Assembly: GCF_014651375.1 (NCBI RefSeq)
Contig: NZ_BMWT01000006.1
Location: 186,001-250,000, forward strand
DNA length: 64,000 nt
Direction: 5' to 3'
Origin: Tateyamaria omphalii
Lineage (GTDB): Bacteria; Pseudomonadota; Alphaproteobacteria; Rhodobacterales; Rhodobacteraceae
Part shown: positions 17,725 to 38,949 of the stretch, piece by piece
How positions within the stretch are numbered: the stretch's first letter is position 1
How the letters are laid out: the number at the start of each line of letters is the position of its first letter
The notes under the pieces: model-generated
The model's database searches: none
The model's input: only the letters and a program-made list of their open reading frames with translations
What the model was told of the DNA's origin: nothing
Translations under genes and position numbers: made by a program

Positions 17725-18243
17725 CTATCCAACGACATCGGATACCGCAGATACGTGGCGTTGTCCCAAACCTTCCGCGAATTGTGCGAGCTTGCATGTC
17801 ATGTCCGGCGTATCGACCGTCCTGCTCTGGACATTTAGCTGTGCCGCCAAGGCGCGGCCAAGCACCGCTTCGCAGGTGCTGAAGCACTTAGGCTGTTCCG
17901 ATGCGCGCCCGGATGTGGTCAGCACGCCCACCGGAATGTCGGAGGCGGCCAATTCCCGCAAAACCGTACGCCCGGGTGGTGCAAGCTGATCGGCCCAGAT
18001 CGGTGCGGCAACGACAATCCAAGGCCTTTTGGCAAGTATTCCAGACCCGAAGTCGAGCGGTAGGACATTGGCCCGACCAACATCCCAGATTGCGCGAAAC
18101 ATCCAAAGCAGCGGAAAGTTGTATCTGGTGGCGTCGATCGGCACCACCTCTGCGCCCGTACTCTGTGCCAGCGCCTTTGCAACATGGCGTGTCGTTCCGG
18201 ACTTGGAATAGCAGTAGATGGCCGGAGGTTTGGTTGCAGACAT
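17725..18243 (-). CDS. Flavodoxin-like protein
   Basis: 172 residues. The N-terminal IYCYSKSGTTRHVAKALAQS is the flavodoxin phosphate-binding loop (S/T-x-T/S-G-x-T) and helix 1; IVVAAPIWADQLAPPGRTVL is the second FMN loop region, with a Trp that may stack on the flavin. Length fits short-chain flavodoxins or flavodoxin-like quinone reductases. A GAAAGGA ribosome site precedes ATG 18243. It is divergent from AdhP around an FNR-type box (18294-18307). The spacing predicts a start about 41 bases from the box centre for both genes, so it is probably induced at low oxygen. Electron partner unknown. Confidence 0.85.
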   Translation of the reverse strand: MSATKPPAIYCYSKSGTTRHVAKALAQSTGAEVVPIDATRYNFPLLWMFRAIWDVGRANVLPLDFGSGILAKRPWIVVAAPIWADQLAPPGRTVLRELAASDIPVGVLTTSGRASEQPKCFSTCEAVLGRALAAQLNVQSRTVDTPDMTCKLAQFAEGLGQRHVSAVSDVVG

Positions 18244-18293
18244 TGTTGCGGTTCCTTTCTCATCTGGCGTAGCGCCGTCAAACGCAGAGCGGA

Positions 18294-18307
18294 TTGAGCA
18301 AAATCAA
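18294..18307. promoter_or_regulatory. FNR/FixK-type box
   Basis: TTGAG-CAAA-ATCAA, matching TTGAT-N4-ATCAA at nine of ten conserved bases. It is centred at 18300.5; class II spacing puts transcription starts near 18342 (adhP) and 18259 (flavodoxin), both just upstream of the ribosome sites. Confidence 0.75.
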
Positions 18308-18365
18308 TCGACACTCACGTCTCTTGTGGCAGCAACGGTCCGCAGTCGCCCGAAGGAGCCAAAGG

Positions 18366-19400
18366 ATGATCGACACGTTGCCGAAAACCATGAAAGCCGC
18401 GGTTGTGACCAAGCTTGGTGAACCGCTTGATATCCGTGAAGTGCCTGTCCCGAAGATCGGCCCACGTGACGTTCTGGTCCGGGTGAGAGCATCAGGAGTT
18501 TGTCACACCGATCTGCATGCGGCGATGGGGGATTGGCCGGTTAAGCCGACGGCTCCTTTTATCCCCGGGCATGAGGGCGTGGGGGAGGTCGCGGCCATTG
18601 GCAAGGATGTGACGCACCTGAAGGAAGGTGACCGTGTCGGTGTGCCGTGGCTGCACACTGCCTGTGGTCGGTGCGAGCATTGCTTTGGCGGATGGGAGAC
18701 ACTGTGCGAGAGCCAGCAAAACACTGGTTGTTCAGTCGATGGCGTTTATGCCGAGTATGTGCGCGCCGATGCTGACTACGTGGGCGCGTTGCCAGATGGC
18801 CTCGAATTTGGCCCGGCTTCGCCCGTGCTTTGTGCAGGCGTCACGGTCTATAAAGGATTGAAAGAAACTGAGGTTCGCCCAGGCCAATGGGTGTTGATAA
18901 GCGGGATCGGTGGTCTTGGACACATGGCGGTGCAATATGCCAAAGCGATGGGCATGCATGTTGTCGCGGTGGATGTGGCGGATGACAAGCTCGCGCTTGC
19001 CAAGTCTCTGGGCGCAGACGAGACGATTAACGTGACCACGACCGATCCGGTCAAGGAGGTGATCGACCATTTGGGCGGCGTGCATGGCGCGCTTGTGACC
19101 GCCGTCAACACGCAAGCTTTTGCACAGGCGACGGGTATGTTGCGGCGCCATGGCACTATGAGCCTTGTGGGTCTGCCGCCCGGCACATTCCCACTCCCAA
19201 TTTTCGAGGTTGTATTGAAGCGGTTGACCATTCGCGGCTCCATCGTTGGCACGCGACTGGACCTTGCTGAATCGCTGAGCCTTGCGGCGGAGGGGCTGAT
19301 TCAGACGCATTTCGCATGGGACAAGCTTGAGAACATCAACACCATTTTTGAGCGGATGAAGGCGGGGCAGATTGAAGGCAGGATCGTGTTGGAGATTTAG
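18366..19400 (+). CDS. adhP: Zinc-dependent alcohol dehydrogenase, AdhP type
   Basis: 344 residues from the ATG at 18366, which has AAGGAG 7 bases upstream; an earlier in-frame ATG at 18294 lies inside the FNR box and upstream of the expected transcript. Catalytic zinc ligands are in GVCHTDLHA and GHEGVGEV plus a later Cys. The structural zinc cluster is CGRCEHCFGG then ETLCES. The Rossmann site is SGIGGLGHMAVQYAKAMG. The family interconverts short alcohols and aldehydes with NAD. Placement behind an FNR-type box and beside a flavodoxin suggests fermentative or redox-balancing use under oxygen limitation. Confidence 0.93.
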   Translation: MIDTLPKTMKAAVVTKLGEPLDIREVPVPKIGPRDVLVRVRASGVCHTDLHAAMGDWPVKPTAPFIPGHEGVGEVAAIGKDVTHLKEGDRVGVPWLHTACGRCEHCFGGWETLCESQQNTGCSVDGVYAEYVRADADYVGALPDGLEFGPASPVLCAGVTVYKGLKETEVRPGQWVLISGIGGLGHMAVQYAKAMGMHVVAVDVADDKLALAKSLGADETINVTTTDPVKEVIDHLGGVHGALVTAVNTQAFAQATGMLRRHGTMSLVGLPPGTFPLPIFEVVLKRLTIRGSIVGTRLDLAESLSLAAEGLIQTHFAWDKLENINTIFERMKAGQIEGRIVLEI

Positions 19401-19698
19401 CGTGCGGAGCCCACCGGCAGGAAACAAGCACATGTCTCCTTTTTCAACACATCCTATCTTTCTTGTTGTTCGGGCGGCATAAAACAGGCGGATTCACCAG
19501 AGCGCATCGCCGTTGTGACCCTCGTTTTCCGTCTGCCTGTGCCATCAAGTAACTGACTAGATGGATGTCCCCGAACCGGATCAAATCCCTTGAGCCAGTT
19601 GCTCGGGGCCTCTTTCACAAGCCACTCTGTGTTTCAAGCCTTTGTGTTGTAAACAGTGCGCCGCCACCGCCCGTCCGGCTATTCGCCGTCCGCAGTCG

Positions 19699-19712
19699 TT
19701 GATTTTGGTCAA
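19699..19712 (+). promoter_or_regulatory. FNR/FixK-type box upstream of cytochrome c
   Basis: TTGAT-TTTG-GTCAA, nine of ten conserved bases. It is centred 64 bases before the ATG at 19770, so a start near 19747 gives a short leader, the class II arrangement. Confidence 0.7.
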
Positions 19713-19769
19713 AGTTATCAGAATCCGAGCGCGCTATGGTTAGGGTCACAACAACAGGGCGAGCATGTA

Positions 19770-20189
19770 ATGACACTTCAATTCAATCACCTGGCAATCC
19801 TTTCGGCCGCAGCTTGGCTCGGGGCATGTGCACCGGAGGCGCGCGAACCGGACATCAGCGTTGAACGTGGCGAGAGACTTTATTTTCAGAAATGCGCAGT
19901 TTGCCACGGCAATGACGCAACGGGGGCCGGGGTCGCCTCTATTGGGTTGGGCGCACCACCGCCAGATTTGACGACGCTTAGCGCCCAGAACCGGGGCGTC
20001 TATCCCCGCACCTTTGTTATGAGTGTTGTCGACGGCTTCAATCGGCGCACGCACCCGGAGTCGGCCATGCCCGAATTTGGCAATGAAGATTTAGGCCCAG
20101 CGGTTCAGGTCGAGGATGGCGGTTTGTCCACGCCGATCCCTTCTGATCTGATTGCCCTCGCCGCCTATCTAGAAAGCATTCAGCGCTGA
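19770..20189 (+). CDS. Small c-type cytochrome, probable lipoprotein
   Basis: 139 residues from ATG 19770. An upstream in-frame start at 19656 precedes the FNR-type box and would add a non-conserved leader. The N-terminus MTLQFNHLAILSAAAWLGAC is a lipoprotein signal with lipobox LGAC, so the protein is probably anchored in a membrane facing the periplasm. Heme attachment is CAVCHG (about residues 44-49) and the sixth-ligand Met is in the AMPEFG segment. It resembles class I monoheme cytochromes that feed terminal oxidases or accept electrons from dehydrogenases. Ribosome site weak (AGGGCGAG). Confidence 0.9.
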   Translation: MTLQFNHLAILSAAAWLGACAPEAREPDISVERGERLYFQKCAVCHGNDATGAGVASIGLGAPPPDLTTLSAQNRGVYPRTFVMSVVDGFNRRTHPESAMPEFGNEDLGPAVQVEDGGLSTPIPSDLIALAAYLESIQR

Positions 20190-20196
20190 TCCAACA

Positions 20197-20529
20197 TCAG
20201 GTGCGGGCGGTTGATTGTACACAGTTCCGGCAGAGGACAGTGTGGGGAACGGCTTGCAAGCGCGCGTCGGAAGTTGGGCCGCCGCATGCTTGGCAGGCGC
20301 AATAAGCTCCATCTTCAATACACGTCAGTGCGGCCTGTAGGAGCACCATTTCCTTTTGCGCTGCCAAGCCGAGACCTTCGAGGACCTCGTCATTCTCCAA
20401 GTCCATCGCTTGTTCCCCAAGGTCTTTGAATTCTGGGTAATCAAGTTCGTTTGTGATCTCCAGCAGCCTCACGCCAAGTTCGGTCAGACATGCTTGGACA
20501 AGTGCTTTGTACTGTGCAGAACCCGGCAT
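20197..20529 (-). CDS. DksA/TraR-type zinc finger protein
   Basis: 110 residues starting at ATG 20529, whose A is shared with the TGA of the upstream DUF2892 gene (TGATG), so translation is coupled. The C-terminus has the four-Cys zinc finger CQACGG...CRNC of the DksA/TraR family, preceded by a helical region with acidic residues (ITNELDYPEF). It lacks the long DksA coiled coil with the paired Asp tip, so it is one of the short members that may bind RNA polymerase weakly or have another role. A longer reading frame up to 20649 runs over the DUF2892 gene and was not used. Confidence 0.85.
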   Translation of the reverse strand: MPGSAQYKALVQACLTELGVRLLEITNELDYPEFKDLGEQAMDLENDEVLEGLGLAAQKEMVLLQAALTCIEDGAYCACQACGGPTSDARLQAVPHTVLCRNCVQSTART

Positions 20530-20741
20530 CAGGATTTGCAGGTTGAAATGCCGAACACCCGGTATACGGGGCAAAAGCGAAAGAACGAGGTCGCAATCAA
20601 AACCAGTCCAACACCCATCGCGGCATAGGCCGCCGCGCTGCTGGCCCATATCGAAGGCATGTTCGCCAGTGGTGCCATAAACAGCAATAAGCCTACCAAT
20701 GCGCGGAGCACGCGATCCGCGGGTCCTAAATTCGTTGTCAT
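20529..20741 (-). CDS. DUF2892 (YgaP-like) small membrane protein
   Basis: 70 residues with two membrane helices (LRALVGLLLFMAPLA and AAAYAAMGVGLVLIATSFF) followed by the CPVYRVFGIST tail typical of DUF2892/YgaP membrane domains. The start MTTNLGPADRVLRA is family-typical and has AAGGAG upstream. It sits second in a three-gene minus-strand operon. The family is often found beside sulfur-transfer or low-oxygen genes; no rhodanese domain is attached here. Function unknown. Confidence 0.88.
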   Translation of the reverse strand: MTTNLGPADRVLRALVGLLLFMAPLANMPSIWASSAAAYAAMGVGLVLIATSFFRFCPVYRVFGISTCKS

Positions 20742-20762
20742 ATTGGTTCTCCTTCTTGGTGA

Positions 20763-21149
20763 TCAGTGAACTGCCTGCATGGTTATCGGATGCTGCATTG
20801 CCCTCAACGTTTTAATGCGGCTACTGCATGCGACGCGGAAAAGGTCCCGAAATTCAGGACTTTGGCGCATCATTGAGCAACACTTATCAAGGTCGACATT
20901 CAGCAGCCTTATGTCTCGTACCACGACGCTTTCTACCCTTGTGATGTCGGTGCTCAGGATCACCGCCGGGGCGCGGATATGCGCGACGAAACCTGATTGC
21001 CATGCCATGCGTATCAAGCCCGCCAAGAGGATTGTGACATCCGTACCTTCATCCATGCGCATCTTCTGCTCGCAAGCCGTCCAATCGCTGAGAACGCAGC
21101 CGTGCTGCTCTAGTCGACGTCCCACGAGATGGGCCAGTTTATCGATCAT
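20763..21149 (-). CDS. Protein of unknown function in the low-oxygen operon
   Basis: I do not recognise the family. The start at 21149 (MIDKLAHLVGRRLEQHGCVL) is preferred because it has GGGGGAA 8 bases upstream and because a longer candidate start at 21212 would lie at or before the transcript start predicted from the FNR-type box at 21242-21255. 128 residues, soluble, with Cys residues near 14, 22 and in an LDKCCSMM segment, which could bind metal or respond to redox state. It is the first gene of an operon with DUF2892 and the DksA-like gene, and divergent from the M50 protease. Confidence 0.65.
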   Translation of the reverse strand: MIDKLAHLVGRRLEQHGCVLSDWTACEQKMRMDEGTDVTILLAGLIRMAWQSGFVAHIRAPAVILSTDITRVESVVVRDIRLLNVDLDKCCSMMRQSPEFRDLFRVACSSRIKTLRAMQHPITMQAVH

Positions 21150-21241
21150 TTGCATTTCCCCCGCATCGTTTTGTTTTTCATTTAGCCGCGCTGGCGCCGG
21201 ATGTTCTGACATTTCTCAAGCCTGCACAAAGCGACGTTCAT

Positions 21242-21255
21242 TTGAGCCAAATCAA
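21242..21255. promoter_or_regulatory. FNR/FixK-type box between divergent operons
   Basis: TTGAG-CCAA-ATCAA, nine of ten conserved bases, with predicted starts near 21207 on the minus strand and 21290 on the plus strand. Both agree with the chosen gene starts. Confidence 0.75.
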
Positions 21256-21308
21256 GGATGTGTGCATCACGGCCTTTAGCCTTGGGGCAAAAGAGGAGGA
21301 CGGTCCTC

Positions 21309-22466
21309 ATGTTTTCCAATACCCGCACCATCGCCACCGTGTTTGGAATTGATATTCGCATTGACCCAAGCTGGGCACTGATCGCTGCTTTGATCACCTG
21401 GAGCCTGTGCCAACATACTTTTCCGACCGCGCTACCTGGACTATCGCAGTGGAGTTACTTCGCGATGGCGGTTCTGGCCATGCTGCTGTTCTTTGCGTCG
21501 TTGGTCGGCCACGAGCTTGCGCACGCTGTGACGGCTCGTCACTTCGGCGTGCAAACGCGGCACATTACCCTGTTTCTGTTTGGCGGAGTCGCCGAGTTGA
21601 CGCAGGAACCTGAGAAAGCGATGCACGAGTTCTGGATCGCGGCTGCGGGGCCCGCAATGAGCCTTACGCTGGCACTGGCATTCTGGATGTGTGCTGGAAC
21701 TAGTGCGGTGTTGATGGGAATTGGACCAGTCGTTGTGGTTCTGGATTACCTGGCGTTGATCAATCTGGTTCTGGCCGTTTTTAACCTGCTGCCCGCCTTC
21801 CCGCTGGATGGGGGGCGAATCCTGCGTGCATGGCTCTGGCATCGGAGCGGCGATATGCTGGCAGCGACCCGGACTGCGGCTCGCTCAGGCACGTTTTTGG
21901 GGTACGCCTTGGTCGGTCTGGGCGTGTTGGGACTGTTCCAAGGCGCAATGGTTGCAGGGTTCTGGCAAATCCTGATCGGGCTGTTTGTGGTGGCCGCTGC
22001 TCGCAGCGCGGTTGAAGCGCAGCAGATCAAGTTCCATCTGGGTGACCACCCCGTCGGCGCGTTGATGACACGCAACGTGATTACCACGAACGCGGACACG
22101 TCCCTTTCGGCACTGGTAAATCAAGTGATGTTGCCAAATCGTATCAGCTTTGTCCCTGTTGTCGAAGAAGGGGCGCTACTGGGTCATATGGATACACGGG
22201 TTCTGATCGGCATTGATCGAGAAAACTGGTCGAATACAACGGTTGGAGACGTCTTCGTCGACCTGGACCCTGATTGCTGCGTGGCGTCCGATCTGCTTGT
22301 GTTTGATCTGTTCGAACGCATCGCAAAGACCGGCCAACGCAAGTTCATAGTCGTCGAAGGGCGTTCTTTGCGTGGTGTCATTTCATTATCTGACCTGACA
22401 AGGCATCTTGGCTTGCTTGCCAGCTTGGGCAAGGTGGCACCCGATGTGGGCAATGCCCGAAGTTGA
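21309..22466 (+). CDS. Site-2-protease-type M50 metalloprotease with CBS domains
   Basis: 385 residues from ATG 21309, with AGGAGGA 8 bases upstream. Membrane-embedded zinc protease: GHELAHAVTARHFGV gives the HExxH ligands and NLLPAFPLDGGR the third ligand Asp. Four to six hydrophobic helices occupy residues about 15-235. From about 245 to the end are two CBS motifs (VGALMTRNVI and VVEGRSLRGVISLSDL) that in this family bind adenosyl nucleotides and gate the protease. The substrate is unknown; related proteins cleave membrane-bound regulators. It is expressed from the FNR-type box region, so probably in the low-oxygen block. Confidence 0.92.
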   Translation: MFSNTRTIATVFGIDIRIDPSWALIAALITWSLCQHTFPTALPGLSQWSYFAMAVLAMLLFFASLVGHELAHAVTARHFGVQTRHITLFLFGGVAELTQEPEKAMHEFWIAAAGPAMSLTLALAFWMCAGTSAVLMGIGPVVVVLDYLALINLVLAVFNLLPAFPLDGGRILRAWLWHRSGDMLAATRTAARSGTFLGYALVGLGVLGLFQGAMVAGFWQILIGLFVVAAARSAVEAQQIKFHLGDHPVGALMTRNVITTNADTSLSALVNQVMLPNRISFVPVVEEGALLGHMDTRVLIGIDRENWSNTTVGDVFVDLDPDCCVASDLLVFDLFERIAKTGQRKFIVVEGRSLRGVISLSDLTRHLGLLASLGKVAPDVGNARS

Positions 22467-22478
22467 ACATCTCTGACC

Positions 22479-22492
22479 TTGACCCTTGTCAC
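22479..22492 (+). promoter_or_regulatory. Weak FNR-like box before the heme-PAS kinase
   Basis: TTGAC-CCTT-GTCAC keeps a full left half-site and an imperfect right half. Its position, centred about 59 bases before the start codon, is right, but the match is weaker than at the other four boxes. Confidence 0.4.
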
Positions 22493-22543
22493 AACCGTTT
22501 GGTCAACTTGATCTAACCGCATATCACAAAGCTGAACCGTCCA

Positions 22544-24079
22544 GTGCCCGAACCCCACGATACCGCCCTTCTGAAGTCCCTGATGGAGGCAGCAGCCGAC
22601 GCCATCGTCATGGCCGATGGTCAGGGCATTATCCAACGCGCGAACACCGCAGCAGACCAGCTTTTTGGTTATGACGAAGGGGCGTTGATCGGCCAAAGTG
22701 TAAATGTCCTTATGCCTGACGCCGTTGCTGCCCTGCATGATGGGTTCATGAACCATCATATGGCCACGGGGCAGGTGCGGATCATTGGCATCGGCCGTGA
22801 CGTTGAAGGGCAGCGCCGGGATGGAACAATTTTCCCTTTGCACTTGTCGGTGGGCAAAGCTGAAGTTGAGGGGGCGCACATATTCATTGGCATCCTGCAT
22901 GACTTGACCCAGCGCCGCGCAGCTCAAGAGGCGTTGGCACGGACCCAAAGGCTGGATGCAGTGGGTCAGTTGACCGGTGGGATCGCACATGACTTCAACA
23001 ATTTGCTGACCGTGATCATTGGTAACCTCGAACTAATGCAAATGCGTGGGGTCGATGAGAGACAGGCGGGGTTGATTGATGATGCGCTGGCGTCGGCTGA
23101 GCTAGGGGCCGACTTGACCGCGCGGTTGCTGGTTTTTGCTCGCAAGGGGGATCTGAAACCGGTCAGGGTCGATCTACGCGAACAATGCGGCAATGCGCTT
23201 GCGATCCTGCGTCGTACGATCGGCGACACCTACTCCATCCGCACCGAGTTTGCGGACACCGTGAGCTCCGTGATGATTGATCCGGTGCAGCTTCAGTCTG
23301 CGCTCATCAACCTCGCGCTGAATGCAAGGGATGCGATGCCACGTGGCGGCGAGTTCCTTATTTCTGTCGCTGACATCCGTATTGATGACAAGTACATGGC
23401 ACAGGAGACGGATATGCCGCCCGGCGACTACGTCCGTCTGTTCGTGAGCGATAACGGCGAGGGAATGTCGCTTGACGCGCAGCGACGCGCGTTCGAGCCT
23501 TTCTTTACAACCAAATCTGACAAGGGCGGTACGGGCCTGGGGCTGGCCATGGTCTACGGATTTGTGAAGCAGTCCGGCGGGCATATCACGCTGTACAGTG
23601 AAGAAGGTCACGGCACGAGTTTTGGACTATACTTCCCGGCGCTTCGGGATGACTGGGATGATCAGGCAAACAAAGACGTCGTGTACCGCACACGGGAGGG
23701 CGACCTGCCACGCGGGGCAGGGCAGGTCGTATTGGTGGTCGAAGACAATCCGAACGTCCGTAGGCTCTCTATCGAGCGCGTTCGTGACCTGGGATATCGA
23801 ACTGAAGAGGCCGAAAATGGCGATGTGGCCTATGCTCTGCTGTCGTCAGGTGTCCACGTCGATCTGGTGTTTTCCGATCTTGTCATGCCCGGCAAACTCA
23901 ATGGATATGATCTGGCTGCCAAGATACGCCAAGAGTTTCCGGATATTCGAATCCTGCTGACTTCGGGCTATGCCAGTGATGTGGTCAGCAACCGGATGGG
24001 CGCCACGGAGGATGACCTGATTTTGCACAAGCCGTACCGATTAACCGACCTGGCCGCACGGCTTCACGCGCTTTTGTGA
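22544..24079 (+). CDS. FixL-like heme-PAS hybrid histidine kinase
   Basis: 511 residues from GTG 22544 (no good ribosome site; ATG 22583 is an alternative that would cut into the PAS domain). Domains: PAS (about 10-130), histidine kinase with H-box GGIAHDFNNLLTV (about 150) and ATP-binding motifs NLALNARDAM and GTGLGLAMVYG, then a receiver domain (about 390-511) with phospho-acceptor Asp in VFSDLVMPG. The PAS domain follows FixL closely: ALHDGFMN supplies His65 at the position of the FixL heme ligand and IIGIGR supplies Arg85 at the position of the oxygen-sensing Arg. It probably senses oxygen through heme. There is no adjacent FixJ; its 3' end overlaps a convergent OmpR-type regulator by 16 bases. 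Confidence 0.9.
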   Translation: MPEPHDTALLKSLMEAAADAIVMADGQGIIQRANTAADQLFGYDEGALIGQSVNVLMPDAVAALHDGFMNHHMATGQVRIIGIGRDVEGQRRDGTIFPLHLSVGKAEVEGAHIFIGILHDLTQRRAAQEALARTQRLDAVGQLTGGIAHDFNNLLTVIIGNLELMQMRGVDERQAGLIDDALASAELGADLTARLLVFARKGDLKPVRVDLREQCGNALAILRRTIGDTYSIRTEFADTVSSVMIDPVQLQSALINLALNARDAMPRGGEFLISVADIRIDDKYMAQETDMPPGDYVRLFVSDNGEGMSLDAQRRAFEPFFTTKSDKGGTGLGLAMVYGFVKQSGGHITLYSEEGHGTSFGLYFPALRDDWDDQANKDVVYRTREGDLPRGAGQVVLVVEDNPNVRRLSIERVRDLGYRTEEAENGDVAYALLSSGVHVDLVFSDLVMPGKLNGYDLAAKIRQEFPDIRILLTSGYASDVVSNRMGATEDDLILHKPYRLTDLAARLHALL

Positions 24080-24837
24080 GGGGCATCATTGGTTTCCGAA
24101 CACTCAACATCACAGGCAAGCGTATACCCGATTCCACGGACGGTTTTGATGATTTTCGGCGCGGATGGGTTGCGTTCAATCTTTTTACGCAAACGTGCCA
24201 CCTGGTTATCGATAGTCCGGTCAAGCGGTGTCCATTCGATGCCGCCCGTAAGATCCATGAGCTGATCGCGTGACAGCACGCGTTTGGGTCGTTCCAGGAA
24301 TACACGAAGGAGGTTAAAGTCGCCGCTGGTCAGTGCGCAATCCAACCCGGTCCGGTCGATCATCTGCATCCTGTCTGGCACAGCCGTGATTCCATCAAAC
24401 CTATAGGTTGCAGATTTTGGACCGTTGGCACTTTGTTCGATGACTTGCTGGGCGTCATCGCTGGCATATTGATGACGGCGCAGAACGGCGCGAATACGAG
24501 CGGTGACCTCGCGTACGTGGAACGGTTTGACGATGTAATCATCTGCACCGATCTCGAGCCCTACCACTCGGTCAATAACGTCATTTTTGCCTGTGACCAT
24601 AACGATAGGAACCGTCGACATCTTGCGAATGCCCCGAGCCAGGTCAAAACCGCTTTCCGCTCCCAGATTGATATCCAGCGTGACAACGCTCGGTTCTTGC
24701 GAGGCCACGCAGTCAAGCGTGTCAGCTGCATTGTCGGCTTGGAGCACGGTAAAGCCGTCGTCCTCAAGCACATTGCGTAGCAAGGCGCGCACTTTCGGAT
24801 CATCTTCGACAACCAGAACGGTTGGTTTTTGCACCAC
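24064..24837 (-). CDS. OmpR-family response regulator
   Basis: 257 residues from GTG 24837 (GGAG 6 bases upstream); codons further 5' up to 24924 do not look like receiver sequence. Receiver domain (about 5-115): VLVVEDDP acidic pocket, LDINLGAESG with the phospho-acceptor Asp, VMVTGKND and the conserved Lys in YIVKPFHV. C-terminal winged helix (about 150-235): LTSGDFNLLRVFLERPKRVL, then TIDNQVARLRKKIE. It converges on the heme-PAS kinase gene and is divergent from the FixK-type regulator. It could be the kinase's output partner, although OmpR-type regulators are not the usual partner of FixL; this is inference. Confidence 0.9.
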   Translation of the reverse strand: MVQKPTVLVVEDDPKVRALLRNVLEDDGFTVLQADNAADTLDCVASQEPSVVTLDINLGAESGFDLARGIRKMSTVPIVMVTGKNDVIDRVVGLEIGADDYIVKPFHVREVTARIRAVLRRHQYASDDAQQVIEQSANGPKSATYRFDGITAVPDRMQMIDRTGLDCALTSGDFNLLRVFLERPKRVLSRDQLMDLTGGIEWTPLDRTIDNQVARLRKKIERNPSAPKIIKTVRGIGYTLACDVECSETNDAPHKSA

Positions 24838-25000
24838 GTGACACTCCAGATATATGACGCGAGGGCGCCGGTGTTGCTCGGGGCGCCTGCACATCAACCG
24901 AAAGGCAGATACAATTTGATACAAAACTGCCTAGTTTGAATGTAATCCGCACTACACGGCACCTTCAATACGGTCCCAGCCGAACAATGGGGGACCACCA

Positions 25001-25672
25001 ATGTACATTACCTTGTCAGCGGAAACCCGCCCTGATCCGGGCCCGTTGACCCATGATGCAGCAAACCGGATGCGACCGGCAACGCTGCTCAAGCAAGGCA
25101 GGCATCTGTTTCACGAAGGTGACGAAGTCGAACGCATCTATCAGGTCAAAACTGGCGTCGTGCGCCTGACGCGCATGCTCGAGGACGGGCGACGGCAAGT
25201 CATCGCCTTCGGGTATCCCGGCGATATCATCGGCTTTCCGGCTGACGGGTGCCATCACACAGATTGTGAAGCGCTGGTTGATACGACCCTGAATGTGTTC
25301 CGGCGCACTGCATTGGATCACGGTGACGGCGATCCCGAACTGCACGTGGCACTATTGAAGGCAGCGCTGAAAGAGATCAGCGAGATGCAGGATCACGTCA
25401 TGATGCTGGGGCGCAAATCCGCGTCCGAGCGTGTTGCGTCCTTTCTTGCTGTGATAACGCAGCGTTATGGGGAAAAGATGGGCAGTCATCGAAGGATCAG
25501 TCTGCCGATGCCGCGCAGTGACATCGCCGATTTCCTGGGCCTGACCACTGAAACGGTCAGCCGTGCATTCTCAGCTCTGCGCAACGAAGGGGTCATAGCG
25601 TTGAATGGGGCACAGACCATCATCGTCATGGAATCCGCCAGACTCCAGCAGCTTGCCTTGGGTGACGACTAA
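25001..25672 (+). CDS. Crp/Fnr-family regulator, FixK type
   Basis: 223 residues with a cyclic-nucleotide-like beta roll (GRHLFHEGDEVERIYQVKTG) and a C-terminal helix-turn-helix, RSDIADFLGLTTETVSRAFS, carrying the E-x-x-S-R residues that read TTGA half-sites. The N-terminal Cys cluster that holds the oxygen-sensing iron-sulfur centre in FNR is absent, so it is of the FixK/DNR class, usually controlled by amount or by another signal. This is the obvious candidate to bind the TTGA-N6-TCAA boxes in this block. Start ATG 25001 with GGGGGAC upstream. Confidence 0.92.
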   Translation: MYITLSAETRPDPGPLTHDAANRMRPATLLKQGRHLFHEGDEVERIYQVKTGVVRLTRMLEDGRRQVIAFGYPGDIIGFPADGCHHTDCEALVDTTLNVFRRTALDHGDGDPELHVALLKAALKEISEMQDHVMMLGRKSASERVASFLAVITQRYGEKMGSHRRISLPMPRSDIADFLGLTTETVSRAFSALRNEGVIALNGAQTIIVMESARLQQLALGDD

Positions 25673-25678
25673 ACCCGC

Positions 25679-26101
25679 TTAGGGTTCAGCCCAATATGCG
25701 CGTATCTCTTTTGGAAGGCATGCGCGCATATCTTCGACCTCGCCGCGGCTGATCCGCTCGTTCAACAGGTCAAAAACGTATCGCCCGTCGTCGGGTCCCC
25801 GAAACTCGGCTGTCTCTTGCATAGCGTCGGCGATGCGGGTTTCGAACTCCAGCCCGGTTTGTGGGGTCAGTTTGGGTTGCCAACCCTCAAACATTATCCC
25901 CCGTACCAGCATGGGAAGCTGCGCCGAAAACTATGCCATCTCGTCCTGCGGCAGCCTGTCTCGCAGGATGTGCAGCACGGCGCGCAGCAATCGCAATGTG
26001 CTGCGTTTCGAGGAATAGCCGACCCGTTCGGACAGCTCGTTGATCCACTCATGGGTCAGGTGAACGGTTTGATCAATTGCTTCAAGGCCTTGACTGGACA
26101 T
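25679..26101 (-). pseudogene. DUF2267 gene interrupted by an in-frame amber codon
   Basis: Both halves of a DUF2267 protein lie in one frame, separated only by TAG at 25931-25933. Before it: LEAIDQTVHLTHEWINELSE, LRAVLHILRDRLPQDEMA. After it: FSAQLPMLVRGIMFEGW and a late RISRGEVEDMRACLP. The frame is otherwise intact from ATG 26101 (AAGGAG 7 bases upstream) to the stop at 25679. Homologs would be expected to carry His or Gln at the stop position, and CAG to TAG is a single change. It follows the bactofilin-like gene by 19 bases in a shared operon. Whether it is inactivated, read through or a sequencing error cannot be told here. Confidence 0.8.
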
Positions 26102-26120
26102 GGGAAGTCTCCTTTCTGGA

Positions 26121-27308
26121 CTATTTGTCGTCACTGGCGACGGGCCGCATATCGACATCCAATGCGGGGTCGATATCGGGGATCAGCGCGAGGAAGGCAG
26201 CATGTGTCATGGCACCAACCCCAAGCAGCACGAGAGTGTAGTTGGCGACCCAGCCCACGAAGGGAACAAAGTTGAGCAGTGCGACCACAACGATGGCCAT
26301 GGTCAGCACAAGCAACCGCGTTGAGATTGGTGGGTCCGCGTCCCCGCCGAAGCCGATCCAGACACGCATTGCGACTGCATAGGCCCCGAGGGCATATGCC
26401 AGGGTCCACACGGCGATCAGACCAAGCAGCGCGATGGGAATAAATGGGATGCCCACGATGGTCATCGCGACAACAGGGATGGCGCCAACTAGAATAGCCA
26501 ACCCGGCCACACCCTGAAGCAGAGTCCGGCCAGGTGATGCCCCGATGGTCTTGCGCAGACATGATACCTTTTTCGGGGCAAAGCCGAGTGCGATTGCCCC
26601 CAAGACAACAAAGAAGAGCAAGCTGACAACAAATCCGAAAAATGCTGACGCGAAGGTTGGGAAGCTCGGCATGTCGCCCACTGCCTCCCTGACATTCCAA
26701 AGACGTCCGCGTTGCAGCGGAGTGAAGGTGACGCGGGCTGCTGGTGCCACGCGCTCCGGTACATCTGTGCGCGTATCGGTGGAATAGGTCAGCTGCCCCG
26801 AAATGATTGCTTCTGGCCCGAACCGCAACGTGCGGGCCGCGATGCGCACATCACCTGCAATGGCCGCGTTCAGCAACACATCCCGGCCGGTTGCCGACAG
26901 AGCGCCATCAATGGGGCCGTCCACGATGATCGTGGCCGCGGCCAGCCGGGCATTGCCATTGACGCGAGAGGACGCCTCGGTCCGGACGGTAAACCCGGCA
27001 GAGGTCAAATCCTCGCCCGCTGTACCCTTCATCGTCACGTATGCGCCCGCGGCGTACACGTCTTCATCGATGTTGACATCAATCACGACGTCAAAGCCCG
27101 CAGCGTGAAAGTCACCCGAAGCTTGCCCCAGCACTGTGGCAGAACGTCCCGCAACAAATACGTCGCCGCTTGTCTCGACCGTTTGGGTGATCGTTTCGCC
27201 CGAGATGAAAGTATCACCGCCGTGCTCGGAAATCTCGATCTCCGAAACCGCAGGCGCTGCCGCAAAAACAGCCAGCATGCTCAGGATCGCCGCACATCTG
27301 TTCCGCAT
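26121..27308 (-). CDS. Exported bactofilin-like (polymer-forming) membrane protein
   Basis: 395 residues from ATG 27308, with GGAG upstream. Signal peptide 1-22 (ILSMLAVFAAAPAVS). Residues about 25-190 are a right-handed beta-helix-like repeat with recurrent GD(V/F)xxAG units (TSGDVFVAGRSATVLG, EDVYAAGAYVTMKG), as in polymer-forming cytoskeletal/bactofilin-like domains. Residues about 225-375 hold four to five membrane helices. A periplasmic beta-helix attached to a membrane domain suggests envelope stress or scaffold function. An FNR-type box lies 54 bases upstream between this gene and Hsp20, predicting co-induction. Confidence 0.8.
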   Translation of the reverse strand: MRNRCAAILSMLAVFAAAPAVSEIEISEHGGDTFISGETITQTVETSGDVFVAGRSATVLGQASGDFHAAGFDVVIDVNIDEDVYAAGAYVTMKGTAGEDLTSAGFTVRTEASSRVNGNARLAAATIIVDGPIDGALSATGRDVLLNAAIAGDVRIAARTLRFGPEAIISGQLTYSTDTRTDVPERVAPAARVTFTPLQRGRLWNVREAVGDMPSFPTFASAFFGFVVSLLFFVVLGAIALGFAPKKVSCLRKTIGASPGRTLLQGVAGLAILVGAIPVVAMTIVGIPFIPIALLGLIAVWTLAYALGAYAVAMRVWIGFGGDADPPISTRLLVLTMAIVVVALLNFVPFVGWVANYTLVLLGVGAMTHAAFLALIPDIDPALDVDMRPVASDDK

Positions 27309-27361
27309 CTCACCCACTCCGTTGTTGCGGCCTCTGCCTAGCGCGAGATGCAAGATTGAAA

Positions 27362-27375
27362 TTGACAATCATCAA
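27362..27375. promoter_or_regulatory. FNR/FixK-type box between bactofilin-like and Hsp20 genes
   Basis: TTGAC-AATC-ATCAA, nine of ten conserved bases. The predicted starts near 27327 (minus) and 27410 (plus) fall just ahead of each chosen start codon. Confidence 0.75.
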
Positions 27376-27443
27376 TCGGCAGCGGGCCGAATTTGTTACA
27401 CGCTGATCGTCCAGAACCCAGTTAGCTCGAAAGGATGCACAAG

Positions 27444-27914
27444 ATGTCAAATCCGAACTTGCCCGGTCGGGGCCATGGGATGTACCCGCCCTTTTTCCAG
27501 TCCTTTCAAAAGGAAATGGCGCAAATGCTGGATCACCTGCGGGGTACGGCGGTGCCGCAACCCACAGAGGACGGAAGCCCTTTGATGCTTGCCGTCGATG
27601 TGGCCGAAACCGACACTGGCCTTGAAATCAGCGCAGATGTCCCCGGCGTCGACGAAGCCGACCTCGATGTGTCGGTGCACGGAGACACATTGGTCATAAA
27701 GGGACAAAAAGGCGCTGACCGTGAGGAAAAGCACAAGGATTACCACCTTGTCGAACGCAGCTACGGACGCTTTCGTCGTCATATCCCATTGGGCTTTGTC
27801 CCGGAGGAGGGTGCAGTAAAGGCGGAGTTTGCCAATGGTGTCCTCAAACTCCAGATCGACAGGCCGGAAAACGCACCGCCGGGTGTTCAGAAAATCAACA
27901 TCGGCGCATCGTGA
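27444..27914 (+). CDS. Hsp20/alpha-crystallin small heat-shock protein
   Basis: 156 residues from ATG 27444, where GAAAGG sits 9 bases upstream; the ATG at 27435 abuts that site. The alpha-crystallin domain (about 45-145) contains VDVAETDTGLEISADVPG, DLDVSVHGDTLVIKGQKG, ERSYGRFRRHIPL and the late AEFANGVLKLQI with the usual GVL motif. The C-terminal I-x-I-type tail is KINIGAS. It is an ATP-independent holdase in the cytoplasm. Expression is probably linked to low oxygen through the shared box at 27362 rather than to a heat-shock element. Confidence 0.93.
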   Translation: MSNPNLPGRGHGMYPPFFQSFQKEMAQMLDHLRGTAVPQPTEDGSPLMLAVDVAETDTGLEISADVPGVDEADLDVSVHGDTLVIKGQKGADREEKHKDYHLVERSYGRFRRHIPLGFVPEEGAVKAEFANGVLKLQIDRPENAPPGVQKINIGAS

Positions 27915-27921
27915 ACAAATT

Positions 27922-27946
27922 GGCCCGGTGCGTGTCGCGCCGGGCC
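27922..27946 (+). terminator. Strong hairpin after the Hsp20 gene
   Basis: A 10-pair stem, GGCCCGGTGC with GCGCCGGGCC (one T-G pair) around a 5-base loop, begins 7 bases after the stop codon. It lacks a T-run, so it could end transcription inefficiently or protect the mRNA 3' end. Confidence 0.55.
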
Positions 27947-29442: not shown

Positions 29443-30240
29443 TCAGGCCGTGCCTTTTCCACGCCATCCTTTCAAATTCAGGACGGCAAATAGTATTGCC
29501 GCAACGCAAACGATAGATGGTCCCGCGGGTGTGTCAAAGACATATGCACCCCGAAGCCCTGCGATGGCAGAGAGTGTTCCAATCGCAGCAGCCGTGACAG
29601 CCATCGCTTCCGGTGTCCGCGCCGTCACACGGGCAGCCGCGGCCGGAATAATGAGAAGCGCAGCAATCAGCAGGACACCCACAACCTTGATCGCGACGGC
29701 CACGGTAATGGCCAAGCTCATGGTCAGGATCAACTGCTCGCGCTTGGGATCAATGCCGCTGGCGTAGGCAAGATCCTCGTTCAAAGTTGATGCCAGCAGT
29801 GCCGACCAGCGCCACACAATCAGGGCAACCACCAACGCAGCACCACCCCAAATGACAAGCAGGTCTGTACGCGATACAGCCAGAATGTCTCCGAACAAAT
29901 AGGCCATCAGATCAATGCGGATGCCGGACAGGAACGATACTGCCACAAGCCCGAACGCCAAGGCGGAGTGCGCCATAACACCTAGAAGCGTATCCATCGC
30001 GTACCCGCGCCCAGCAAGGCTGGTCACGGTCATCGCCATGATGAGAGCAACAATGAGCGCGCCCGAGAAAATTGATAGTTCAAGCGCAAGTGACAGAGCA
30101 ACGCCCAAGATGGCAGCGTGTGCTGTGGCATCGCCGAAATAGGCCATGCGGCGCCAGACGACGAAACACCCCAACGGTGCAGCCGCGCATGCAACGCCAA
30201 TTCCCGCAAGCGTTGCGCGTGTCATGAAATCGTCAAGCAT
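29443..30240 (-). CDS. znuB: Zinc ABC transporter permease ZnuB
   Basis: 265 residues and about eight membrane helices. Family features include the start FMTRATLAGIGVACAAAPLG, FGDATAHAAILGVALSLAL and the late AAALLIIPAAAARVTARTPE-type segment. It is the inner-membrane channel of the ZnuABC importer. Its ATG shares one base with the znuC stop (TAATG), so the two are translationally coupled. It is the last gene of the zur-znuC-znuB operon and is under Zur control through the operator at 31511. Confidence 0.94.
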   Translation of the reverse strand: MLDDFMTRATLAGIGVACAAAPLGCFVVWRRMAYFGDATAHAAILGVALSLALELSIFSGALIVALIMAMTVTSLAGRGYAMDTLLGVMAHSALAFGLVAVSFLSGIRIDLMAYLFGDILAVSRTDLLVIWGGAALVVALIVWRWSALLASTLNEDLAYASGIDPKREQLILTMSLAITVAVAIKVVGVLLIAALLIIPAAAARVTARTPEAMAVTAAAIGTLSAIAGLRGAYVFDTPAGPSIVCVAAILFAVLNLKGWRGKGTA

Positions 30241-30971
30241 TATTCAGCGGCCTTTTGGCTGGGTCCGTGATGATGATCGTGATCATGCCGGTACAGGGCC
30301 AAGGCGCCTCCGGTTCCGGCACCAAACAGAGCACGATACTCGGGTGCTGACGCGACGACCGCCGGGGAGCCCTGACAACAGACATGACCGTTCAGGCAAA
30401 CCACCCGGTCCGATGCGCTCATCACCACGTGCAAATCATGGCTGATCATGAGAATCGCGCACCCGGTTTGTTCACGAACCATCTCGATTTGACGATAAAA
30501 CGACGCTGATCCAGGTTGGTCCAGCCCCTGTGTCGCCTCATCAAGCAGTAGAACATCTGGTGTGTTGATCAATGCCCGGGCAAGCAGCACACGCTGGAAC
30601 TGGCCGCCGGAAAGTTGCGTCATCTGGCGGTCCAGCAAATCGGGCACGCCAGCCGCATTCAGCGCTTCATTGCATTTGCTCAATGGAACCCGTTCGGTGA
30701 GGCGCAAAAAGCGTGCCACCGTTATCGGCAGGGTCTGGTCAATGTGCAGCTTTTGCGGCACGTAGCCGATTTTTAACCGAGGTGATAACTGAACCTGCCC
30801 GGCAGCGGGTTTTGTGGCGCCAATGATGGCGCGCAGTAGGCTGGTCTTCCCCGACCCGTTTGGGCCGACAATAGTCACAATCTCACCTGACGACAGTGTC
30901 AGATCGACATCGCGCAACACCGTGTTCGCGCCATATGCGACGCACAGGTTCGTGACGGTAATCAAGGTCAT
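30240..30971 (-). CDS. znuC: Zinc ABC transporter ATPase ZnuC
   Basis: 243 residues from ATG 30971, which overlaps the zur stop as ATGA; upstream codons in this frame belong to zur. Walker A GPNGSGKTSLL, signature LSGGQFQRVLLARAL, Walker B LLLDEATQG, and the H-loop MISHDLHVV are all intact. The C-terminus is His-rich (YRHDHDHHHG), a common metal-sensing or buffering tail in ZnuC. It energises zinc import with ZnuB and ZnuA. Confidence 0.95.
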   Translation of the reverse strand: MTLITVTNLCVAYGANTVLRDVDLTLSSGEIVTIVGPNGSGKTSLLRAIIGATKPAAGQVQLSPRLKIGYVPQKLHIDQTLPITVARFLRLTERVPLSKCNEALNAAGVPDLLDRQMTQLSGGQFQRVLLARALINTPDVLLLDEATQGLDQPGSASFYRQIEMVREQTGCAILMISHDLHVVMSASDRVVCLNGHVCCQGSPAVVASAPEYRALFGAGTGGALALYRHDHDHHHGPSQKAAE

Positions 30972-31501
30972 GCGTCTGTCTTGTCGATACAGGTTGGGCA
31001 GACGCCTTCGGCTTCGACGACTGTCTTTTCGATCTGAAATCCGGCGGCTTTTGCCGCATCGCCCAAAACACCCTTGGCCGGGGCCGACTGCGCCTCGGCC
31101 ACGGAATCGCACAGTCGGCAAATCATGAAGGCGGGAGAATGGCTTTCGCCGGGATGACTGCAGGCGACAAACGCGTTCAATCTCTCGATCTTGTGTACGA
31201 AACCGTTTTCCGTGAGAAAATCCAGCGCACGATAGGCGACAGGGGGTTGCGACCCGAAACCCGCGTCTTTCAAAAGGTCAAGAAGCGCATAAGCCCCCAA
31301 AGCACGATGTTCTTGGAGCAGCAATTCCAAGACCTTCCTGCGCACGGGTGTGAACCTGAGCCCGACATCAGCACAGCGCGCTTCTGCCGCTGCCAAGGCG
31401 CTGGCTACACACCGATCGTGATCGTGGCTCTGAAACCCCAAAGGGGATCCTTTGTCGGCAGGCTCGGATGGGTGGTTGCTTGTCATGGAATTGGTGATCA
31501 T
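30968..31501 (-). CDS. zur: Zinc uptake regulator Zur (Fur family)
   Basis: 177 residues. Winged helix: RCADVGLRFTPVRRKVLELL and LLKDAGFGSQPPVAYRALDFL. Dimer domain with metal sites: ACSHPGESHSPAFMICRLCD and the terminal CPTCIDK, giving the two CxxC pairs of the structural zinc site. Zur represses zinc import genes when zinc is plentiful. It is the first gene of its operon with znuC and znuB, faces znuA, and the gap holds a Zur-type operator, so it is probably autoregulated. ATG 31486 (MTSNHPSEP) is an alternative start. Confidence 0.94.
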   Translation of the reverse strand: MITNSMTSNHPSEPADKGSPLGFQSHDHDRCVASALAAAEARCADVGLRFTPVRRKVLELLLQEHRALGAYALLDLLKDAGFGSQPPVAYRALDFLTENGFVHKIERLNAFVACSHPGESHSPAFMICRLCDSVAEAQSAPAKGVLGDAAKAAGFQIEKTVVEAEGVCPTCIDKTDA

Positions 31502-38650: not shown

Positions 38651-38949
38651 TTGGTTGAAGCAGTTCAAACCTTGTCGCCCGTTACAAAGACAGCGATCGG
38701 TCCCGCAATTCAGCACATACTCTACTATGATTTTGATCGTAAAACGCCTTTCATGTCAGAGGGCCCTCCGCTGATCGAAAGGGAGATGCGTGAGGTTATT
38801 GTGGCGCGTACCGCGTTCACACGCGAGGTTTGGTCTCGCGAACGAGCATTTCGAGGCGGCGAGTGAGCCTTGGAGCCTGGCCCTTTTGAATGTAGTTCCG
38901 GAAGAGAAGCTGTGACAGTGTATCGTAAAGGCCATTGCCTCGATCCTGG

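Follow-up and report, generated by a model that had tools for sequence, protein, structure and literature searches.

The block at positions 17725–27946 of the window, the whole stretch of 64,000 nucleotides that was analysed, most probably encodes, as judged from its sequence, an hFixL-FxkR-FixK relay packed together with its own targets (Table 1). In the proposed pathway, a fall in oxygen would strip O2 from the heme-PAS hybrid kinase, which would then phosphorylate the OmpR-type response regulator. The regulator is predicted to bind the direct repeat GATACA-N4-GATACA and switch on fixK, and FixK would in turn bind TTGA-N6-TCAA boxes at a class II position and activate the genes for AdhP, cytochrome c, the M50-CBS protease, Hsp20, the bactofilin-like and flavodoxin-like proteins and a small protein. 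Both the operator and the boxes are recognised by their conservation, and the genes of the block would be expected to respond to oxygen. At lower oxygen these boxes are probably also read by FnrL, whose gene lies outside the block, comparable to FnrN of Rhizobium leguminosarum.

Table 1 Genes and predicted regulatory sites of the block (positions in the window).
Feature	Position	Strand	Remarks
Flavodoxin-like protein	17725–18243	-	label by motif; no significant family match
Exact FNR/FixK box	18294–18307		between flavodoxin-like gene (8/8 loci) and adhP (9/9)
AdhP zinc alcohol dehydrogenase	18366–19400	+	NF006940, 355 bits, cut-off 344 (scanned from 18369); improved start
Exact FNR/FixK box	19699–19712		upstream of cytochrome c gene, 9/9 loci
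c-type cytochrome	19770–20189	+	domain match
DksA-like zinc-finger protein	20197–20529	-	scanned as 20197–20535; first ATG 20529
YgaP-like_TM (PF11127)	20529–20741	-	no box
Small fast-evolving protein	20763–21155	-	fold unassigned; start re-assigned
One-mismatch box	21206–21219	-	57.5 nt before re-assigned small-gene start
Exact FNR/FixK box	21242–21255		upstream of M50-CBS gene, 15/17 loci
M50 site-2-type protease with CBS domain	21309–22466	+	domain match
Weak box TTGACCCTTGTCAC	22479–22492		before kinase; one-mismatch in 4/15 loci, exact in 1, none in 10 (window included)
hFixL-type hybrid histidine kinase	22544–24079	+	heme-PAS, HisKA, HATPase, receiver
FxkR-type response regulator	24064–24837	-	receiver and OmpR winged helix (Response_reg + Trans_reg_C)
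K-box-like FxkR operator GATACA-N4-GATACA (predicted)	24908–24923	+	ahead of fixK, with its centre 85.5 nt from the ATG
FixK-type Crp/Fnr regulator	25001–25672	+	no N-terminal Cys cluster
DUF2267 gene	25679–26101	-	interrupted, in-frame TAG at 25931–25933
Protein with weak bactofilin match	26121–27308	-	19.8 bits, cut-off 27.9; improved start
Exact FNR/FixK box	27362–27375		between bactofilin-like gene (7/7 loci) and Hsp20 gene (6/6)
Hsp20 small heat-shock protein	27435–27914	+	domain match

The kinase, the response regulator and FixK

The heme-PAS kinase and the FixK-type regulator that an earlier note on this DNA had recognised are both borne out. First, the PAS part of the kinase aligns to the heme-PAS structures of FixL (E about 1e-30), its closest solved relatives being FixL proteins, and the His and Arg at the aligned positions are invariant, both across the 16 block loci and across all 45 kinase matches that cover them. 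Next, the FixK-type protein finds its best NCBIfam match in Caulobacter FixK (159.7 bits, under the cut-off of 300), and its only cysteines lie at positions 84 and 89; since the N-terminal cysteine cluster is absent, an FNR-type (Fe-S) identity is rejected, and the protein would need the relay to receive an oxygen signal. Finally, a query with FxkR9 of R. leguminosarum retrieves the regulator of the window as the best match in this genome (2.1e-59, the runner-up reaching 1.3e-44), and in the tree it clusters with FxkR9 and with regulators that mostly adjoin FixK- and hFixL-like genes. The support is moderate, as the deep fork joining the groups carries 88/95, is unstarred and contains one long-branched paralogue of unsure placement. 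The hybrid kinase adjoins the regulator on the opposite strand in 26 of the 30 regulator loci with flanks, a gene neighbourhood which suggests that phosphotransfer runs from the one to the other.

The relay could be real and yet answer to a different signal, such as NO, CO or the redox state, with its genes serving general stress. The target mix consists mostly of stress proteins, heme-PAS domains are able to bind gases other than O2, and in the alignment a His apparently occupies the position that we take to be Arg206 in FixL numbering. However, the closeness of the PAS part to FixL and the invariant His and Arg of the heme pocket make such a reading rather improbable, and the rhizobial pathway is described as active at 1% O2 (PMC7888657).

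A predicted K-box-like operator upstream of fixK

The earlier note had overlooked the key element, an FxkR-type response regulator together with a K-box that would place FixK under the kinase. The direct repeat differs from the rhizobial K-box GTTACA-N4-GTTACA by one change per half-site and can thus be regarded as K-box-like. The pattern TACA-N6-TACA precedes fixK at all 16 aligned loci and is found in 48 of the 56 divergent regulator-fixK intergenes of Rhodobacterales, against 0.10 expected, and upstream of paralogues it occurs in none of nine cases. The remaining eight Rhodobacterales intergenes hold imperfect versions, six scoring 11 out of 12, one 10 and one 9, and two of the six have it closer to fixK; the pattern is likewise missing in three of four named reference intergenes, that of pRL9 among them, which score 10–11 of 12. 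Across the genome the strict K-box matches twice and the reversed control once, and its uniqueness therefore does not count as proof.

FNR/FixK boxes at the predicted target promoters

The four exact TTGA-N6-TCAA boxes of the block are present where the earlier note had placed them, and all are noncoding under the present gene calls; the window has a fifth exact box at 38655, beyond the block. Five exact boxes compare with 1.21 expected from dinucleotide shuffling, and one shuffle in 100 got to five, whereas tolerating one mismatch yields 29 sites in the window versus 23 expected, so the exact boxes alone stand out. The whole genome contains 91 exact boxes and 28 matches to the reversed control pattern. 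At the genomic density, four exact boxes per 10.2 kb have a P of about 5e-5, a value valid for a window fixed beforehand; as the block had been selected for its boxes, the real test is conservation.

The conservation set comprised 17 loci, the window and 16 relatives, in which an exact box was sought within 220 nt before each gene; genes lacking a usable match were left uncounted, and one box counts for both genes of a divergent pair. Of the 56 promoter instances of the same genes, 54 carry an exact box, and this supports a block that is conserved and organised around FNR/FixK boxes, while the reversed control gives 0–1 matches per locus. A chance cluster unrelated to the gene neighbourhood, which the single shuffle with five boxes and the choice of the block on account of its boxes might have favoured, is rejected by this recurrence and has a negligible probability. 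The clusters also accompany the kinase-regulator-FixK trio: the counts are 0, 0, 2, 0 and 0 boxes at five M50 loci that lack the trio, and 3–9 at 16 others. No exact box is found within 220 nt of ygaP (0/6), fixK (0/16) or the response regulator gene (0/16) in the 17-locus set, and the absence from the latter two indicates separate tiers, with the K-box at fixK and the FNR boxes at the effectors. A search of plasmid DNA with the whole block as the query returned no match in a collection that may omit the source or very near genomes.

The spacing of the boxes fits the class II arrangement proposed previously. The centre of the nearest box lies 53–72 nt upstream of the aligned start, with one at 87 nt (many starts are approximate), and at the M50-CBS and cytochrome c genes a TAnnnT element is located about 28.5–29.5 nt from the box centre, matching the class II expectation. 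Over all 54 promoters, however, the mean match to TATAAT peaks at 2.13 of 6 at 26.5 nt, compared with 1.94 at 28.5 nt, and the −10 signal is therefore weak. The boxes thus appear strongly conserved at a class II position with a weak −10 signal. The weak box reported before the kinase does exist at 22479, but it is poorly conserved, and its absence from 10 of 15 loci leaves it unsupported as a general feature.

The proposed mix of target genes likewise needs trimming. Cytochrome c, M50-CBS and Hsp20 have domain matches; the DUF2267 gene is broken, ygaP (DUF2892 presumably being the older name of YgaP-like_TM) has no box, and the "flavodoxin" and "bactofilin" fall under the Pfam cut-offs. In the relatives, 46 of 57 box-adjacent genes give a mixed list of 51 Pfam families, and the 25 families shown include the Na/Ca exchanger (4), VIT1 (3), ADH (3), DnaJ (2), Hsp20 (2), CBS (2) and Usp (1); gene calling in the relatives is crude, and the tally is accordingly not counted as evidence.

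To the left of the M50 gene, the start and box formerly assigned to the small gene are probably wrong. A start at 21155 rather than 21212 is more likely, and together with the box at 21206–21219 it fits better; the box is exact in six of six aligned relatives, 61.5–69.5 nt before the start. A database search with the small protein returned only the protein itself, a PDB sequence search gave no match, and its single-sequence structure model (pLDDT 44.6) is of no use. Profile comparisons with a Crp-like sensor domain devoid of its DNA-binding part were insignificant (probability 2%), and in a second comparison Hsp20 outscored the Crp profiles. Guessing from its position next to a box, the protein might act as a brake built into the relay.

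FixK or FnrL as the reader of the boxes

The boxes might instead be chiefly FnrL sites, with FnrL controlling the block directly and the FixK of the block being a minor or redundant reader. The FnrL encoded elsewhere in the genome carries the N-terminal cysteine cluster and has an ETVSR recognition helix identical to that of the window FixK. Its gene, about 41 kb from the block on the same contig, adjoins hemN-, usp- and cco-like genes (labelled by eye) with four boxes. Among 29 genomes with AdhP orthologues, a box precedes the gene in 8 of 10 with a close regulator (E of at most 1e-55) and in 6 of 19 without one (Fisher P 0.02). When AdhP is at least 76% identical, the box is present in 8/8 genomes with and 6/7 without the regulator, and at 62–68% identity it is present in 0/2 and 0/12, respectively. 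The comparison at matched identity leaves FixK as the sole reader of the boxes unsupported, and the retention of the adhP box in six of seven genomes devoid of a close regulator makes that box independent of this relay. The description of the module as "dedicated" is consequently not borne out, given also the shared ETVSR helix. According to PMC7888657, FnrN of R. leguminosarum drives fixNOQP in near-anaerobic nodule zones, in line with an FnrL-type reader. Predominant control by FnrL is nevertheless unlikely: the box clusters near M50 go with the trio, and the same source names hFixL-FxkR-FixK and not FnrN as the key anaerobox activator when R. leguminosarum is free-living at 1% O2.

Comparison with known systems

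The relay proposed for the block most resembles the hFixL-FxkR-FixK cascade of R. leguminosarum 3841 and R. etli, with which it shares a hybrid heme-PAS kinase, an OmpR-type regulator, a FixK lacking Fe-S cysteines, a K-box in the form of a direct repeat upstream of fixK, FNR boxes at the targets and an adhP neighbour, the pRL9 adhP being 62.5% identical, adjoining fxkR9 and having an FNR box upstream. In contrast to the cascade of Rhizobiaceae, the block is found in Rhodobacterales, its kinase and regulator genes are convergent rather than arranged as a fixK-hfixL operon, its kinase gene has 1536 bases compared with 1926 on pRL9, its type of operator half-site is often GATACA instead of GTTACA, and fixNOQP is not among its genes.

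The FixLJ-FixK systems of Bradyrhizobium, Sinorhizobium and Caulobacter share with it the logic of a heme-PAS kinase controlling FixK and have similar target types, and published FixK-dependent genes include those for Hsp20, a CBS protein, a zinc alcohol dehydrogenase and cytochrome c (PMC2908626). Unlike these, the block has an OmpR-type regulator and a K-box-like operator and no FixJ-type regulator; within the block, the neighbour of the kinase is a Response_reg + Trans_reg_C protein and not one with a NarL/LuxR-type output, by which a FixLJ identity is rejected. The FnrL regulon of Rhodobacteraceae uses the identical box, and FnrL is present in this genome, but it relies on direct Fe-S sensing of oxygen with no kinase (PMC4999443).

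Distribution and significance

A close regulator is present in 63 of 390 Rhodobacterales genomes, 60 of them falling within the FxkR group of the tree; 56 have a divergent fixK, 48 with the operator pattern, and for seven no divergent fixK was found within the stretch fetched. A survey of 50 genomes (PMC4999443) restricts hFixL-FxkR-FixKf to R. etli, R. leguminosarum and S. meliloti, assigns Rhodobacterales only FnrN-type proteins and places the origin of the cascade in Rhizobiaceae. This type of cascade is already known from nodule bacteria; its probable carriers in Rhodobacterales are new against that FnrN-only picture. A tentative reading, somewhat less likely than its opposite, is that hFixL-FxkR-FixK is not an invention of Rhizobiaceae for nitrogen fixation but an older switch of alphaproteobacteria that helps them to survive when oxygen declines. 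On this reading, many Rhodobacterales have retained it, some of them as a self-contained block that includes stress targets, and rhizobia recruited it later for the cbb3 oxidase and nitrogen fixation. The predicted regulon is compact and within reach of one RNA-seq experiment, and Rhodobacterales provide a non-rhizobial group in which to ask why an alphaproteobacterium needs a heme relay in addition to FnrL.

Proteins of the proposed relay

By sequence, the block encodes a hybrid kinase, an OmpR-type regulator and a FixK-type protein, the same combination as in the hFixL-FxkR-FixK cascade of rhizobia. The kinase has the domain order PAS, HisKA, HATPase and receiver, and its PAS domain runs from residue 10 on, which would leave no space for an N-terminal membrane anchor. 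With E values of about 1e-30, this domain matches the heme-PAS structures of FixL; for the full-length protein, the top PDB hit is a CckA kinase domain. All 16 block loci conserve the His of 'HDGF' and the Arg of 'IIGIGR', as do all 45 kinase matches spanning those residues, among them four named reference records. Oxygen sensing and phosphotransfer by the relay are predicted. The regulator adjoining the kinase consists of a receiver and an OmpR-type winged helix. An N-terminal cysteine cluster is absent from the FixK-type protein but present in FnrL of the same genome.

When FxkR9 from the R. leguminosarum plasmid pRL9 is compared with the window's own genome, the block regulator is the best match (2.1e-59; next 1.3e-44). 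In a regulator tree of 116 rows, 113 of them different, the 71 Rhodobacterales rows cluster together (95/97) and join Terrarubrum (96/85) and then a group of seven, which comprises two named rhizobia and five other genomes of the class, with a FixK-like gene within reach in six and an hFixL-like gene in six. The fork uniting all three is unstarred at 88/95, and one long-branched paralogue whose place is unsure also falls within it. Inside this fork lie 60 of 63 Rhodobacterales regulators; the other three (L145-L147) are without a divergent fixK. The hybrid kinase adjoins the regulator on the opposite strand in 26 of 30 regulator loci with flanks, and the same layout is found on a Sulfitobacter plasmid. 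On a 49-kb Tropicibacter oceani plasmid (L074), a kinase relative of 58% identity lies beside cytochrome c and P-type ATPase genes, with the regulator elsewhere on the plasmid.

The K-box-like repeat upstream of fixK

The K-box consensus is given as GTTACA-N4-GTTACA, after Zamorano-Sanchez 2012 (PMC4999443, PMC7888657). A similar repeat precedes fixK in the window, and among the 16 block loci with fixK, TACA-N6-TACA occurs at the matching alignment position in all and the strict GWTACA-N4-GWTACA in eight. A search of 390 Rhodobacterales genomes, overlapping in part with the earlier set, found the regulator at E <= 1e-55 in 63, and the upstream DNA of all 63 was examined. A divergent fixK is present in 56, and 48 of these intergenes contain TACA-N6-TACA, where dinucleotide shuffles predict 0.10; the motif is found upstream of one of the seven regulators without fixK and of none of nine OmpR-type paralogues encoded in the same genome as the window. 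On a 12-position K-box score, 51 of the 56 intergenes reach 11 or 12, a score of 11 being attained by 2 of 1,120 mononucleotide shuffles and 12 by none; the eight intergenes without TACA-N6-TACA score 11 (six), 10 (one) and 9 (one). Among four named reference intergenes, that of the Sulfitobacter plasmid has TACA-N6-TACA and the other three score 10-11, including pRL9, whose K-box is in print.

The window's own genome contains two strict matches, one being the site before fixK, versus one for the reversed control; the second has no clear gene context and is likely due to chance. The R. leguminosarum K-boxes are placed at -62 (PMC7888657), and if this offset is measured to the K-box centre, fixK transcription would start near 24978, 23 nt ahead of the ATG.

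Conservation of the TTGA-N6-TCAA boxes

The four strong boxes described in the earlier note are all present as exact matches, each in noncoding DNA by the gene calls made here, which amounts to 1,113 of the 10,222 bases of the block. The whole genome (4.75 Mb) has 91 exact boxes versus 28 for a reversed control pattern.

Searching 148 related genomes for the M50-CBS protein yielded 31 matches, one of them from the window itself, and 21 loci were compared: the best 19 of the 30 non-window matches, each with ~20 kb of surrounding DNA (11 kb for one), and two of six named loci. In 16 of the 21, 3-9 exact boxes are found, and 15 of these 16 have kinase, regulator and FixK nearby; the sixteenth, L052, has the trio elsewhere in the same genome (L106). 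The five loci without the trio have 0, 0, 2, 0 and 0 exact boxes.

Exact boxes were then counted gene by gene in the window and 16 relatives within 220 nt ahead of the start, excluding genes without a usable match. Six effector genes carry them, but none is found in this interval before ygaP (0/6), fixK (0/16) or the regulator gene (0/16). The sequences thus suggest two control tiers, effector genes with boxes and fixK and the regulator gene without, where FixK would bind and activate at the boxes.

Features of the window and related loci (G000, the window's own genome; fractions, loci with an exact box <=220 nt upstream)
Feature	Coordinates	Observation
Block	17725-27946
Exact boxes in block	18294, 19699, 21242, 27362
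Weak box	22479	before kinase
Fifth exact box of window	38655-38668	outside block
Flavodoxin-like		8/8
adhP		9/9
Cytochrome c		9/9
M50-CBS	21309-22466	15/17
Bactofilin-like		7/7
Hsp20		6/6
Small gene	20763-21155	left of M50-CBS
One-mismatch box	21206-21219	ahead of small gene
Hybrid kinase	22544-24079
FxkR-type regulator	24064-24837
K-box-like repeat	24908-24923	GATACA-ATTT-GATACA
FixK-type protein	25001-25672
TAG in DUF2267 gene	25931-25933	minus strand, in frame
Transporter genes	29443-31501	ABC-3 permease, ABC ATPase, Fur-family regulator
FnrL locus	L068:1-8106 (G000 contig C6)	four exact boxes
Second strict K-box-like match	L149 (G000:C1:162655-162670)
Na/Ca exchanger-like gene	L049:10483-11520, L050:7865-8902, L051:18552-19589, L057:11384-12421	family displayed for L049; four set members match
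Crp-like protein	L058:143-682	179 aa, box ahead

Aligned starts lie 53-72 nt from the nearest box centre, with a single case at 87. In class II activation a TAnnnT element is expected ~28.5-29.5 nt from the box centre. Such spacing, proposed earlier for every box, stands out at 28.5-29.5 nt for M50-CBS and cytochrome c; the signal is weak over all 54 promoters, where the mean TATAAT match peaks at 26.5 nt. As for the proposed weak box, of 15 loci, the window among them, 4 have a counterpart with one mismatch, 1 an exact counterpart and 10 no counterpart.

The small gene aligns to its relatives only from residues 11-22 on; a start at 21155 places the one-mismatch box at 57.5 nt, and the relatives have an exact box at 61.5-69.5 nt in 6/6 aligned. 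The protein has no family match and merely 20-42% identity to these six, yet an exact box precedes the gene in each. In four relatives a box near M50-CBS lies 40-83 nt from the start of an Na/Ca exchanger-like gene, which the window lacks, and in one the Crp-like protein seemingly lacks its DNA-binding part (by eye). Because of the TAG, the DUF2267 gene reads as two open frames, both matched side by side in several relatives; it is a pseudogene or contains a sequencing error. The transporter genes perhaps represent zinc uptake with Zur.

Candidate readers of the boxes

Three Crp/Fnr proteins of the genome score above the family cut-off: the block FixK, FnrL and one on contig C8. The gene for FnrL, which has cysteines, shares the contig with the block and lies ~41 kb ahead of it, next to genes that by eye resemble hemN, usp and cco. 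Across 390 genomes, 29 reach the threshold of an AdhP orthologue test, and a box precedes adhP in 8 of 10 with a close regulator versus 6 of 19 without, the latter set being defined by absence of a close regulator alone. At >=76% identity the counts become 8/8 and 6/7, which argues that the adhP box is independent of the relay; it is probably also read by FnrL or another Crp/Fnr protein. The role of the block in oxygen limitation, proposed in the earlier note, is a putative one.

Relation to published FixK systems

Predicted FixK targets include Hsp20, a CBS protein, a zinc alcohol dehydrogenase and a class I cytochrome c; members for the first three require FixK2 in Bradyrhizobium, and in Rhodopseudomonas the cytochrome is FixK-dependent (PMC2908626). 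The gene mix of the block is therefore ordinary for FixK. The cascade is described from three Rhizobiaceae among 50 genomes, with its origin placed in that family and FnrN-type proteins only in Rhodobacterales (PMC4999443). FixK is regarded as generally limited to Rhizobiales in a study whose table nevertheless assigns loci of Rhodobacter sphaeroides to the ortholog groups of FixL and FixJ (PMC2908626), and a fixK gene is mentioned in a Nereida genome note (PMC4770636). Within the titles, abstract openings and passages covered for FxkR, hFixL and FixK, none of the papers listed describes the cascade from Rhodobacterales. The components and logic of the cascade are already known; new are its host range, its layout and the set of local targets.
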